From Thalassotalea sp. (GTDB taxonomy: Bacteria; Pseudomonadota; Gammaproteobacteria; Enterobacterales; Alteromonadaceae), in NCBI GenBank assembly GCA_029237915.1, contig JAQWHD010000006.1, positions 1-51,455 of the forward strand: a DNA stretch of 51,455 bases, read 5' to 3'. Made by a program: the position numbers and the translations under genes. A model generated the notes under the pieces. The model did no database searches. It saw only the letters and a program-made list of their open reading frames with translations, and was not told the DNA's origin. Below are positions 22,297-26,351 of the stretch, in pieces (the first letter of the stretch is position 1; each line of letters opens with the position of its first letter).

Positions 22297-25053
22297 ATGA
22301 CACAAACTTCTCCTTACATCCTTGTTGACGGTTCATCGTATCTTTTTCGCGCATACCATGTGCCCTATTTACAAGCGCTTAGCACCAAAGATGGTCACCC
22401 TACCGGTGCCATCACTGGCGTTTTAAATATGATAAAAAGCCTACAAAAAGATTATCCAACAGGGAAAATCGTGGTGATTTTTGATGCGAAAGGCAAAACC
22501 TTCCGTAATGATTTATATCCCGAATACAAAGCTAATCGTCCTCCAATGCCTGATGACTTACGTTGCCAAATCGAGCCATTGCATAAAATAATCAACGCTA
22601 TGGGTTTACCTATGTTGGTTATTAAAGGGGTTGAGGCCGATGACGTTATTGGTACTTTAGCAGACCAAGCAAGTAATTTAGGTTTAGAAACGGTTATATC
22701 TACTGGCGATAAAGATATGGCGCAGTTAGTTACCGAACACGTAACCTTAATTAACACCATGACTAATGTCGCTATGGATGTTGACGGTGTTATGGAAAAG
22801 TTTGGCGTGCGCCCAGATCAAATCATTGATTACCTAACGCTAATGGGTGACAAGGTAGATAACATTCCTGGTGTCGACAAGTGTGGACCAAAAACTGCAG
22901 TAAAATGGCTAGCGGAACACGATACGTTAGACAATGTGATAGCTAATGCAGGAAACGTAAAAGGTAAAATTGGTGAGCATTTACGAAATGCATTAGAACA
23001 ACTGCCTCTTTCTCACGAACTTGCCACGATCAGACTAGACGTTGAATTAGACCAAGCAATTAATGAGATTGAAGCTAGCACGCCTGATACTGACACCTTA
23101 CGAGAAATGTATACCCAGTTTGAATTAAAACGATTATTAGCCGAACTCGATGGCACAAGCTCAGCTCCATCGGCAAGCAAAAAGAAAACGACAGCACCAA
23201 GTAATGATGAAGACGAAGATGAAGTTGTTGCTGTAGATATTGATGCCGAATATGACATTGTCCTTAACAAGGAACAATTTAATACTTGGCTAACAAAACT
23301 ACAAAGCTGTTCGAGTTTTGCCTTTGATACTGAAACCACTAGCGTAAATTACATGCAAGCTAAATTGGTTGGTGTTTCTTTTGCCATTGAAGTAGGTAAA
23401 GCAGCTTACGTACCATTAGCCCATGATTACATCGATGCACCACAGCAATTAGATTTAGACTGGGTACTTGCGCAATTAAAACCTCTTTTAGAGAGTGAAA
23501 CAATTGGCAAGATCGGCCAAAATTTAAAATATGATGCTAATGTATTAAGTCACTACGACATAAATTTAAAAGGTATTGCTTTTGATACCATGCTTGAGTC
23601 GTATTGTTTAAACAGTGTATCTACCCGTCATAATATGGACGCACTAGCAGCTAAATATTTAGGCTATAACACAGTACATTTTGAAGATATCGCTGGTAAA
23701 GGTGCGAAACAATTAACTTTTAATCAGATAGAAGTTGAAAAAGCAGGACATTATGCTGCTGAAGATGCCGATATCACCCTAAGATTACACCAAGCTATCT
23801 GGCCTAAGTTAGAAAAAAATGGCGATCAAAAAGCCATCTTCAGCGATGTGGAATTACCGCTATTAACTGTTCTAGCTAAAATGGAACAAGGTGGTGTGTT
23901 AATTGACCCTGACTTATTAATTGAACAAAGCAGCTTAATTGGCACGCGATTAGATGAACTTGAATTACAAGCACATAACTTAGCAGGCAAAAGCTTCAAC
24001 CTAAGTTCACCTAAACAATTACAAGTGATCTTGTTTGAAGAGCAAGGTATTCCAGTAATTAAGAAAACCCCTAAAGGTGCACCTTCAACAGCAGAAGAAG
24101 TACTGCAGGAATTAGCCCTTGATTACCCTCTGCCAAAATTAATTATTGAACATCGCGGTTTAAGTAAGCTTAAATCGACTTACACGGATAAACTGCCACT
24201 TATGATTGATAGCAAATCAGGTCGGGTGCATACTTCATATCATCAAGCAGTAACCGCAACCGGACGTTTATCATCATCCGATCCAAACTTACAAAACATT
24301 CCAATTCGTAGTGAAGAAGGCAAAAAAATCCGCCAAGCGTTTATCGCACCTGATGGTTATAAGATTTTAGCAATTGATTACTCACAAATTGAATTACGCA
24401 TTATGGCGCATTTATCTAAAGATGAAGGTTTACTTACTGCGTTTTCACAAGGCCGCGATATTCACCAAGCGACTGCTGCTGAAATATTCAACTTGCCACT
24501 AGATGAAGTTACGACTGATCACCGCCGTAGCGCCAAGGCTATTAACTTTGGTTTGATTTACGGTATGTCGGCATTTGGCTTAGCAAAACAATTGAATATT
24601 GCTCGTGGTAAAGCCCAAGATTATATGGATGCCTACTTTGCACGTTACCCAGGTGTATTAGAGTATATGGAAGACACTCGTCAACTTGCTAGTGAACAAG
24701 GCTATGTTGAAACTATCTTTGGTCGTCGCTTATTCTTACCTGAAATTAAGTCTAAAAATGGTGCTCGTAGAAAAGCAGCTGAGCGCGCCGCAATCAATGC
24801 TCCTATGCAAGGTACTGCAGCCGATATTATTAAAAAAGCAATGATAGCTGTTGATAAATGGATAACTGAAAACAACGACCCACGTATAAAAATGACCATG
24901 CAAGTGCACGATGAACTGATTTTTGAGGTGCCGGAAAGCATACTTTCTGAAACAACACAAAAATTAGTACAAATAATGGACAATGCAGTGCAGTTAGATG
25001 TGCCATTAACCTCTGAAGCCGGCACTGGTGATAACTGGCAACAAGCACACTAA
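22297..25053 (+). CDS. polA: DNA polymerase I
   Basis: A 918-residue repair and primer-processing polymerase. The N-terminal 5' nuclease (residues 1 to about 290) has VDGSSYLFRAYHVP, VFDAKGKTFRNDLYPEYKANRP and LMGDKVDNIPGVDKCGPKTA. The 3'-5' exonuclease begins at FAFDTETTSVN (catalytic Asp-x-Glu present) and includes NLKYDANVL and YAAEDADITLRL. The polymerase domain has TATGRLSSSDPNLQNIPIR, IDYSQIELRIMAHLS, the O-helix RRSAKAINFGLIYGMSAFGLA and QVHDELIFEVP. Length is close to E. coli Pol I (928). All three active sites appear intact. Two DnaA boxes lie upstream and an intrinsic terminator downstream. Confidence 0.98.
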   Translation: MTQTSPYILVDGSSYLFRAYHVPYLQALSTKDGHPTGAITGVLNMIKSLQKDYPTGKIVVIFDAKGKTFRNDLYPEYKANRPPMPDDLRCQIEPLHKIINAMGLPMLVIKGVEADDVIGTLADQASNLGLETVISTGDKDMAQLVTEHVTLINTMTNVAMDVDGVMEKFGVRPDQIIDYLTLMGDKVDNIPGVDKCGPKTAVKWLAEHDTLDNVIANAGNVKGKIGEHLRNALEQLPLSHELATIRLDVELDQAINEIEASTPDTDTLREMYTQFELKRLLAELDGTSSAPSASKKKTTAPSNDEDEDEVVAVDIDAEYDIVLNKEQFNTWLTKLQSCSSFAFDTETTSVNYMQAKLVGVSFAIEVGKAAYVPLAHDYIDAPQQLDLDWVLAQLKPLLESETIGKIGQNLKYDANVLSHYDINLKGIAFDTMLESYCLNSVSTRHNMDALAAKYLGYNTVHFEDIAGKGAKQLTFNQIEVEKAGHYAAEDADITLRLHQAIWPKLEKNGDQKAIFSDVELPLLTVLAKMEQGGVLIDPDLLIEQSSLIGTRLDELELQAHNLAGKSFNLSSPKQLQVILFEEQGIPVIKKTPKGAPSTAEEVLQELALDYPLPKLIIEHRGLSKLKSTYTDKLPLMIDSKSGRVHTSYHQAVTATGRLSSSDPNLQNIPIRSEEGKKIRQAFIAPDGYKILAIDYSQIELRIMAHLSKDEGLLTAFSQGRDIHQATAAEIFNLPLDEVTTDHRRSAKAINFGLIYGMSAFGLAKQLNIARGKAQDYMDAYFARYPGVLEYMEDTRQLASEQGYVETIFGRRLFLPEIKSKNGARRKAAERAAINAPMQGTAADIIKKAMIAVDKWITENNDPRIKMTMQVHDELIFEVPESILSETTQKLVQIMDNAVQLDVPLTSEAGTGDNWQQAH

Positions 25054-25090
25054 TTTGTAGTTTTATTACAAAAAAGCGTTCTGAGTGACA

Positions 25091-25118
25091 AAAAAACAGG
25101 CTTTATGCCTGCTTTTTT
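25091..25118 (+). terminator. Intrinsic terminator of polA
   Basis: A-run, CAGGC, short loop, GCCTG, then CTTTTTT, starting 38 bases after the polA stop. It isolates the downstream twin units from polA transcription. Confidence 0.8.
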
Positions 25119-25152
25119 CATTTTTTTGTTAAAAAATGTAATAAAAGTTAGA

Positions 25153-25189
25153 GTAAAGACTTTACAACATAGAGTTAACACTCTATTAT
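25153..25189 (+). promoter_or_regulatory. Promoter with overlapping inverted repeats, twin unit 1
   Basis: A -35 TTTACA (25161-25166) and -10 TATTAT (25184-25189) are separated by exactly 17 bases. GTAAAGACTTTAC (25153-25165), an inverted repeat, overlaps the -35. ATAGAGT (25169-25175) and ACTCTAT (25180-25186) form a 7-4-7 inverted repeat filling the spacer and touching the -10. Such placement is typical of a repressor operator. The same arrangement recurs 310 bases downstream. Confidence 0.65.
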
Positions 25190-25196
25190 AACTCTC

Positions 25197-25288
25197 GTTC
25201 CTTACGGAACTCTTGTTGTAATAACTTTTGTTTTCTAGCTTCCCCATAAGCTTCTTACCGACTTTGCATTGTGAAGTCGGTTTTTTTT
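25197..25288 (+). ncRNA. Candidate small RNA, twin copy 1 (about 92 nt)
   Basis: Predicted transcript from about 7 bases after the -10 to the end of a T8 tract. Visible structure, in order: a 5' hairpin GTTCC-TTAC-GGAAC (25197-25210); an unpaired U-rich stretch containing TTGTTGTAATAAC; a short stem AGCTT-CCCCAT-AAGCT (25237-25252) with a C-rich loop; and a terminator ACCGACTT / AAGTCGGT followed by eight T in all. There is no open frame of note. A near-identical second copy follows. The gap between polA and engB is where E. coli carries spf (Spot 42), but I see no sequence resemblance to Spot 42. Coding of a regulatory RNA is inferred from promoter, terminator and duplication. Confidence 0.6.
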
Positions 25289-25371
25289 GCCTGAAATTTA
25301 GTACAAACGACTAACCGCGACGATTTATATGCGACCAAGTCCAATACACTTCCTCCACGAATAGTTGTCGC

Positions 25372-25386
25372 AGCTGAGATTCAGCT
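25372..25386. repeat. Short inverted repeat between the twin units
   Basis: AGCTGA-GAT-TCAGCT, a 6-3-6 inverted repeat in the otherwise unremarkable 170-base stretch separating the two RNA units. It has no U-tract; function unknown. Confidence 0.3.
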
Positions 25387-25462
25387 TAGATAAAATTTAT
25401 CAAAAGAACGCTATACAACGTCAGTTTTATGTAAAGAATGCATTTTAAACTAAAGTATTAGA

Positions 25463-25499
25463 GTAAAAGCTTTACAAAATAGAGTTAACACTCTATTAT
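25463..25499 (+). promoter_or_regulatory. Promoter with overlapping inverted repeats, twin unit 2
   Basis: A second copy of the arrangement: -35 TTTACA (25471-25476), a 17-base spacer, -10 TATTAT (25494-25499), GTAAAAGCTTTAC (25463-25475) over the -35, and ATAGAGT/ACTCTAT (25479-25485, 25490-25496) in the spacer. The seven bases just after the -10 differ almost completely from copy 1, while promoter boxes and inverted repeats are kept. This argues that those elements are functional. Confidence 0.65.
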
Positions 25500-25506
25500 T
25501 GTTTTT

Positions 25507-25599
25507 GTTCCCTACGGAACTCTTGTTGTAATAACATTTTGTTTTCTAGCTTCCCCATAAGCTTCTTACCGACTTTGCATTGTGAAGTCGGTTTTTTTT
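25507..25599 (+). ncRNA. Candidate small RNA, twin copy 2 (about 93 nt)
   Basis: This differs from copy 1 by one substitution in the 5' hairpin loop (TTAC to CTAC) and one inserted A in the U-rich linker. From TTTTGTTTTC onward, including the AGCTT-CCCCAT-AAGCT stem and the terminator, the two are identical. It ends in eight T and faces the convergent engB terminator. Two active copies could adjust dose or answer different signals through their different discriminators (inference). Confidence 0.6.
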
Positions 25600-25614
25600 G
25601 CCTAAAATTTAGTT

Positions 25615-25646
25615 AAAAAAAAGCCCCTATATTATCAATAGGAGCT
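25615..25646 (-). terminator. Intrinsic terminator of engB
   Basis: On the minus strand, AGCTCCTAT / ATAGGGGCT (one G-U pair) with a 7-base loop is followed by a run of T. It lies 31 bases after the engB stop. Confidence 0.85.
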
Positions 25647-25676
25647 CTTCATCTTATAAAACTTTACTGCTAAGAA

Positions 25677-26351
25677 TTAATCTTCTTCAGTTTTCACTTC
25701 ATCGTCTAATTCAACCAACTCTTGCTTTTCAATAGTTGAAAACCATTCACTTATAATGTTGGTGGTAACTTCTAAGCCAACTCGAGTTAATGAAGAGAAC
25801 GCTTGCACTTGGATGTTGTTATGCATAGTTTTGCATTTTTTACGTACTTGCAAAACTTCACTATTACGTTTGCCAGGCTTCAACTTATCAGCCTTAGTTA
25901 ACAATACTAAAGTAGCTAAGCCTGAATCATTAGCCCAATTGATCAAATCAACGTCTAAATCTTTTAAAGGATGACGAATATCCATAAGGATAACTAAGCC
26001 TTTTAAGCTCATTCGGCGCTCTAGATATTCCGCTAAGGCTTTTTGCCATTTTTTCTTCATTTCTAAAGGTACTTTAGCAAATCCATAACCAGGTAAATCA
26101 ATTAAGCGGCGATCTTCGTTTATATCGAAGACATTAATCAATTGAGTACGACCAGGGGTTTTACTTGTACGCGCCAAACCTCTTTGGTTAGTTAGCGTAT
26201 TTAGTGCACTAGACTTACCTGCATTTGAACGCCCAGCAAAAGCTACTTCTATGCCGCTATCGGCTGGAAGCCTACGGATATCAGGGGCACTAAGGGTAAA
26301 TTTTGCAATATGTAAATTAACTACAGGAGCTGTCAAAAGTGGTTCCACCAT
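25677..26351 (-). CDS. engB: Ribosome-biogenesis GTP-binding protein
   Basis: A 224-residue TRAFAC GTPase (YihA/YsxC) needed for large-subunit assembly. GTPase motifs are complete: G1 GRSNAGKSS, the G2 region [12 protein letters not shown]3 [11 protein letters not shown] and G4 TKADKLKPG, followed by the basic C-terminal helix. An acidic tail ([15 protein letters not shown]-like) ends the protein. The position next to polA matches E. coli (yihA) and other gammaproteobacteria. It is divergent from the cytochrome gene. Confidence 0.96.

Follow-up and report, generated by a model that had tools for sequence, protein, structure and literature searches.

In Escherichia coli, the gap between polA and engB holds spf, the gene of the small RNA Spot 42, which is repressed by CRP-cAMP. 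In vibrios, PMC3295665 describes a second small RNA located 3' of spf, VSsrna24, which is glucose-repressed, about 60 nt long and limited to the Vibrionaceae. In the case of Pseudomon-1/ErsA (RF01719), a review (PMC8395346) states that sigma 22 drives the RNA, which had originally been described as functionally orthologous to Spot 42. In Neisseria, NgncR_162/163 (NmsRA/B) are adjacent, similar and Hfq-bound small RNAs with three stem-loops; according to PMC9973317, they use stem-loop 2 and the single strand next to it to pair with metabolic targets, for the most part at the ribosome-binding site.

In the window, i.e., the whole analysed stretch of 51,455 nt from Thalassotalea sp., the polA-engB gap spans positions 25054-25676 and contains two complete cassettes, 25149-25288 and 25459-25599 (Table 1). 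Both units thus lie in the Spot 42-like position and, similar to Spot 42, would produce short, terminator-ended RNAs; however, they differ from Spot 42 in the absence of a covariance-model match and of the GTAGGGTACAG 5' end, and in their hairpins and loop. VSsrna24 likewise represents a second small RNA of the spf gap, recognised here by position only, but the TTAGAG box described below was not seen with it. ErsA has in common with the window RNA a location 3' of polA and C-rich loops (locus L249), but its body is different. The Neisseria siblings resemble the window twins as adjacent, similar RNAs with three stem-loops, but belong to another genus and another locus, and the likeness in working is an analogy only. 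Judged from the sequence, the twin cassettes are genuine small-RNA genes: promoter-like sites, terminators, three hairpins, conservation, class-specific loops and a HexR-type box can all be read from it. As near-identical copies, each with its own promoter and terminator and with a conserved structure, they would be sibling small RNAs. The explanation preferred here, in which twin small-RNA genes of a family that replaced Spot 42 act by loop pairing under HexR and dyad control, is given a probability of roughly 0.7 as a whole.

Table 1. Features in and around the polA-engB gap (positions of the window).
Feature	Position	Strand	Remark
polA (DNA polymerase I; upstream neighbour)	22297..25053	+	NCBIfam
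HexR-type box TGTAGTTTTATTACA, just 3' of the polA stop	25056..25070	.	exact match to TGTARTWWWAYTACA
Terminator-like hairpin, 3' of polA and 5' of unit 1	25097..25117	+	
Unit 1 upstream dyad TAGAGTAAAGACTTTA	25149..25164	.	overlaps -35
Unit 1 -35 TTTACA	25161..25166	+	
Unit 1 second dyad TAGAGTTAACACTCTA	25170..25185	.	between -35 and -10
Unit 1 -10 TATTAT	25184..25189	+	17-nt spacer from -35
Unit 1 small RNA	25196..25288	+	5' end predicted from -10
Unit 1 RNA hairpins	25197-25210; 25237-25252; 25258-25288		second with loop CCCCAT; third is the terminator
Unit 2 upstream dyad TAGAGTAAAAGCTTTA	25459..25474	.	one mismatch to the searched pattern
Unit 2 -35 TTTACA	25471..25476	+	
Unit 2 second dyad TAGAGTTAACACTCTA	25480..25495	.	
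Unit 2 -10 TATTAT	25494..25499	+	17-nt spacer from -35
Unit 2 small RNA	25506..25599	+	5' end predicted
Unit 2 RNA hairpins	25507-25520; 25548-25563; 25569-25599		third is the terminator
engB/yihA/ysxC GTPase (convergent downstream neighbour)	25677..26351	-	NCBIfam

The twin cassettes of the original prediction, each with a promoter of TTTACA, a 17-nt spacer and TATTAT, hairpins and an eight-T terminator, were confirmed. Both terminators consist of an 11-pair stem followed by eight T, ending at 25288 in unit 1 and 25599 in unit 2, and the predicted RNAs, counted from starts placed by the -10, are about 93-94 nt long. The region contains five terminator-like sites, compared with 0.2 in shuffles, and four promoter-like sites, compared with 1.7; hence, the promoters by themselves are weak evidence. 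In folding, units 1 and 2 beat all 200 shuffles (z -4.1 and -4.7, respectively). One substitution and one inserted A are the only differences between the two RNAs in the span that begins with the first hairpin and ends with the T run, as had been noticed beforehand. The inter-unit DNA and the discriminators had also been described as non-matching, which holds for the most part: five of the seven nucleotides after the -10 differ and the inter-unit DNA is unlike, except for approximately 20 nt past the terminator, which are alike.

No family of Rfam (release 15) matched the whole window at gathering cut-offs, which agrees with the earlier statement that the units are not an E. coli-type Spot 42; at E up to 10, the gap alone gave 21 weak matches, none of them convincing. 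A genus-wide search detected one to three copies in each of 15 genomes, the source genome included, with 23 copies in total. In 14 of these genomes, polA and/or engB is situated within 1.5 kb of the copies, and the remaining one (G407) contains three copies with neither gene within that distance. An alignment was made of 35 copies (34 distinct), of which 23 derive from the genus and 12 from nine genomes of other genera. In this alignment, 96.3% of the stem cells are paired, compared with 22-45% for slid structures; 9 of 16 pairs are changed on both sides, and 81 double-changed cells are counted vs 25 +/- 5 in shuffles that ignore relatedness. Two of the three predicted hairpins contain compensatory changes (helices 1 and 3), and helix 2, which bears the C-rich loop, is nearly invariant with zero compensatory changes, so that it says little for or against its own pairing. 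Conservation within the RNA is among the highest in the linker TGTTGTAA, which never varies, and in the C-rich loop, which is largely invariant. The covariation and the presence in all 15 genus genomes uphold the view of two conserved small-RNA genes under selection. Furthermore, in the most similar species (G404), units 1 and 2 carry the promoter traits that separate units 1 and 2 of the window; the pair is therefore older than the split between the two, and more than the simple recent duplication that the original prediction had argued against.

A covariance-model search, which the prediction had proposed for related polA-engB gaps, was run on related genomes, and the same RNA family is found across related genera. 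In the GTDB family, the model R1, built from the 35 aligned copies, matched 67 of 196 genomes, which represent 19 of 52 genera; 17 of the 67 supplied training rows and match by construction. Two matches exist in 50 of these genomes, one in 14 and three in 3; the match in one of the 67, the outgroup G499, is a distant relative of the window RNA. When a named species collection was scanned with a DNA pattern, 54 stretches were obtained, under the titles Colwellia, Thalassotalea, Cognaticolwellia, Litorilituus, Thalassomonas, Colwelliaceae bacterium or Alteromonadaceae bacterium; the window genus's own form of the RNA, which the scan pattern does not fit, is not among these 54. The RNA family is absent from Rfam release 15 and common in Colwellia and Thalassotalea genomes. 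Spot 42, spf, polA, engB and yihA are unmentioned in the one paper on Colwellia and small RNA in which these terms were sought.

Two promoter classes exist outside the window genus. The sample comprises 58 copies on 56 stretches; of the 59 non-genus genomes with matches, 31 were used, picked to cover genera. Only two of the 58 copies lie between polA and engB (in G412 and the outgroup G499), both of the TTAGAG type, and two copies on one contig can be as close as 0.6 kb (G558) or as far apart as about 350 kb (G459). With narrow search offsets and a rule fixed after the data had been seen, 21 of the 22 polA-side copies (within 1.5 kb) possess a HexR-type box 5' of the -35, the other being unclear, and 20 of the 22 engB-side copies (within 3 kb) possess a TTAGAGTAAnnACTTTA (TTAGAG-type) box, the other two, both in G558, being of the HexR type; a first classing with wider offsets, under which the second dyad could be taken for the upstream box, had assigned 8 of the 22 polA-side copies to TTAGAG. 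The 12 copies with neither gene near enough comprise four of the HexR type and eight of the TTAGAG type. Two exceptions to the two-class rule are the G558 locus L189, where two tandem copies near engB both have HexR-type promoters, and G412, with its single TTAGAG-type copy between polA and engB.

The loop bears the base that separates the promoter classes in these genera. Among these copies, whose relatedness by descent keeps a Fisher value from being a fair probability, the loop reads CCUC in 25 of 27 of the HexR type, with one CCCC and one unread; of the 30 TTAGAG-type copies, outgroup included, 29 have CCCC and one is unread. The linker base 5' of UGUUGUA, where readable, is U in all 24 copies of the HexR type and C in 24 of 27 of the TTAGAG type. 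In the named collection, which was classed with looser offsets and overlaps in species with the 58-copy sample, CCUC occurs at 38 of 38 HexR-type loci and CCCC at 13 of 15 TTAGAG-type loci, with one locus unclassed. A tree of the RNA bodies (the 58 copies plus the 23 of the genus, with L174, unclear in the classing, hand-labelled as polA class) is grouped by promoter class, with 5 and 7 changes vs about 24 in shuffles. The window genus forms a single clade of its own (100/99) in this tree, which has few columns and many open forks and does not place that genus between the two classes. The window units themselves are mixed, combining the TTAGAG promoter and the CCCC loop of the engB class with the CUUGUUGUA linker of the polA class.

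The box just past polA matches TGTARTWWWAYTACA, which we take to be the HexR consensus, as supported by a box at the hexR/zwf/pykA locus. Six exact sites of this pattern exist in the source genome, compared with two per strand for the reversed pattern: one in the polA-engB gap, one each 5' of pckA and of asnB, one in the gnd-gapA interval, one in the zwf-hexR interval and one within an ORF. The hexR gene is situated between zwf and pykA, with the box present, and both of these are named as HexR targets in PMC5343134. In all 13 genus loci that include polA, the box lies at most 21 nt past the polA stop, matching at 15 of 15 positions in 11 loci and at 14 of 15 in two. The distance from this box to the promoter box is 91-93 nt in ten loci, 83 nt in one and 102-104 nt in two; these distances, few as the cases are, form steps of roughly one helical turn. 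Five of these polA-containing loci have a second copy, which in three of them has a HexR-type box of its own (14/15 or 15/15), at 83-93 nt, and no HexR-type box of at least 13/15 was found at unit 2 of the window or of G404. The window genus has kept the HexR box, yet its units are of the TTAGAG type, and with some 90 bp separating the HexR box from the promoter box downstream, an effect there is doubtful. In other genera, with the box above the -35, activation by HexR would fit.

A gap survey of the engB loci of 59 of 60 genomes, from other genera and families of the order, detected the starting 9-mer of Spot 42 in 33 of the 59 loci. In 13 loci, a second RNA is situated 5' of engB, with a TTAGAGYAAANACTTYA-like box, a hairpin TAGCTTCTCCCC or AAGCTTCTCCCC, and a terminator. 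In 11 of these 13, it shares the gap with Spot 42, which adjoins polA, while the distant relative adjoins engB; in the remaining two, polA is away from engB. The R1 model matched the engB-side relative in 13 of 13 places with weak scores (22.8-38.9 bits, E 0.0001-0.08) that overlap those of other matches, from 25.0 bits, one of them on Spot 42, so the score by itself is not decisive; position, promoter box and hairpin agree with the call. The exact pattern of box and hairpin was found in 24 of 394 genomes and 5 of 115 genera of the order, with 0 for the reversed pattern. An exact TGTAATTTWATTACA HexR-type box is also located 56-59 nt 5' of the first base of Spot 42 in 16 of 196 family genomes and 7 of 52 genera (0 reversed), a distance similar to that in the HexR-type copies of the window RNA, where the box lies 53-55 nt ahead of the first R1 position. 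Loci L335-L338 and 12 further family genomes have this box before Spot 42; a literature search for HexR with Spot 42 returned, in the partial texts available, nothing on such a box or on this locus.

Several lines of evidence bear on the readings of these units. One holds that they are strongly diverged Spot 42 genes, spf having been duplicated and having drifted past recognition, in favour of which are the same gap and neighbour, the HexR-type box 5' of both Spot 42 and the polA-side copies, and weak R1 matches on Alteromonas-type Spot 42 (21.4-25.0 bits in three of four loci). This reading is nonetheless quite unlikely. The Spot 42 covariance model (RF00021) gave no match of at least 80 bits in the window and none at E 0.001 in the source genome and nine other-genus training genomes, although the latter search also missed plain Alteromonas-type Spot 42 genes (e.g., L197) and its silence proves little. 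The GTAGGGTACAG start, defined as the 5' end seen in matched Spot 42 genes of this analysis and sought as the 9-mer GTAGGGTAY, is absent from the window and from all 15 genus loci; the 9-mer occurs in 5 of 55 related stretches, none of which proved to be Spot 42 on reading. Moreover, Spot 42 and the engB-side relative stand together in 11 outgroup gaps and are therefore separate genes there. Spot 42 and the window RNA may share a very old origin. That the engB-side family is the VSsrna24 of the Vibrionaceae is also unlikely. Both lie 3' of spf and 5' of engB and contain a C-rich stretch, and VSsrna24 is reported as glucose-repressed in PMC3295665; however, its length and its family limits speak against identity, and R1 at E 1 had no match at the engB-side RNA in 12 loci of presumed Vibrio type. 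Inspection of such loci by eye showed no promoter box, and the gap of L222 seems by eye to hold a VSsrna24-like stretch plus a separate TTAGAG-type box. VSsrna24 was rejected as the window RNA on the R1 result, in which its identity rests on position.

It is quite improbable that the units are transcribed remnants without a pairing role, maintained near polA only because of their promoters or terminators. The contents of the gap near polA do differ between lineages, as this reading would have it, but the linker and loop are highly conserved and change in a class-specific manner, and both window units retain promoter and terminator. The suggestion of a dispersed repeat or mobile element (REP/ERIC/MITE-like) instead of an RNA gene draws on two copies close by and on conserved inverted repeats. 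Against it, the source genome contains only two full copies, both in this gap, so that they are not a dispersed repeat; copies adjoin polA or engB across genera, and the stems covary. The known dispersed repeat that the original prediction had named as its counter-case is hardly credible. ErsA was also tried as the window RNA and rejected, the link being limited to position and C-rich loops: its model gave 17 bits (E = 1) on unit 1 only, vs a 50-bit cut-off, and R1 gave 19.1 bits (E 0.29) on the ErsA locus L249. In the class, the ErsA model matched 22 of 274 genomes at E 0.01, one of them above the cut-off. From the comparisons with VSsrna24 and ErsA, the window RNA seems to be a further RNA of a gap whose RNA content differs between lineages.

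Under the preferred reading, twin genes that replaced Spot 42, two independently promoted genes would each encode a trans-acting small RNA of ~93 nt. The ancestral order would have been polA, HexR box, Spot 42, TTAGAG box, window-type RNA and engB. Spot 42 would then have given way, in the line of Colwellia and Thalassotalea, to a copy of the engB-side RNA that gained the HexR-box promoter; in most genera, insertions or rearrangements would then have parted the two copies, and the window genus would later have made both units alike, renewing the tandem pair. Since the class boxes follow the neighbouring gene and Spot 42 and the relative occur together in 11 gaps, Spot 42 was apparently replaced by its neighbour's copy, placed as far as the boxes indicate under Spot 42's own control box. 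The fuller account, in which the replacement was in place, the loops diverged into CCUC and CCCC tied to their promoters, each of two carbon-status inputs thereby had a seed of its own, and re-fusion in the window genus gave twins with one seed, has in our view slightly better than even odds.

By analogy with the Neisseria siblings, the RNAs most likely act by base-pairing in the manner of Hfq-type RNAs, the C-rich loop blocking the ribosome-binding site. In line with the original prediction, the CCCCAT loop could be a pairing seed and the U-rich linker could contain an Hfq site. Hfq would assist the C-rich loop UUCCCCAU and the linker CUUGUUGUAAUAAC, which is single-stranded, in pairing near the ribosome-binding site of mRNAs, and translation would mostly be repressed. 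The amount of RNA would be set by HexR, which responds to the sugar intermediate KDPG, and by a putative regulator binding the TAGAGTNNNNACTCTA dyad. If the swap with a kept control box is true, a regulatory input could outlive the RNA that it drives. A gap long thought to hold Spot 42 as a fixture appears to have swapped its RNA, and the HexR-type box before Spot 42 in part of the GTDB family suggests a sugar input to Spot 42 other than CRP. The paired changes of promoter and loop across the family make the proposal directly testable.

The original prediction could not have revealed that the RNA has Spot 42 as a neighbour elsewhere, nor the part of the HexR box or the existence of two promoter classes; it was also silent on the exact HexR-type box in the window and on the dyads. 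Two dyads frame each promoter, with starts 21 bp apart, one over the -35 and the other between the -35 and the -10. A box of the upstream-dyad type also exists 5' of most engB-adjacent copies in other genera and of the distant relatives, and the second dyad scores at least 14/16 (four positions free) in 52 of the 58 other-genus copies. With at most one mismatch, TAGAGTNNNNACTYTA occurs 61 times on both strands of the source genome vs 37 for the reversed pattern, a small excess; exact sites number three in the twin promoters and one elsewhere.

In the gaps of L193, L194, L197, L204 and L208, a GAACTT promoter-like stretch, by eye presumably of the sigma-E type, precedes a short stretch that ends in a terminator and may represent a third small RNA. 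In other Gammaproteobacteria (L250-L256), several C-rich loops are located beside polA and/or engB, with weak ErsA-model scores of 30-37 bits. The sole exact TAGAGTNNNNACTYTA site outside the twins (C54:54140-54155, L269) lies between a 3-oxoacid CoA-transferase gene and a gene resembling that of an acyl-CoA dehydrogenase, and sites with one mismatch are situated near pckA, serA/rpiA and gltB; the genes near such sites might hint at a regulator of the Lrp type.
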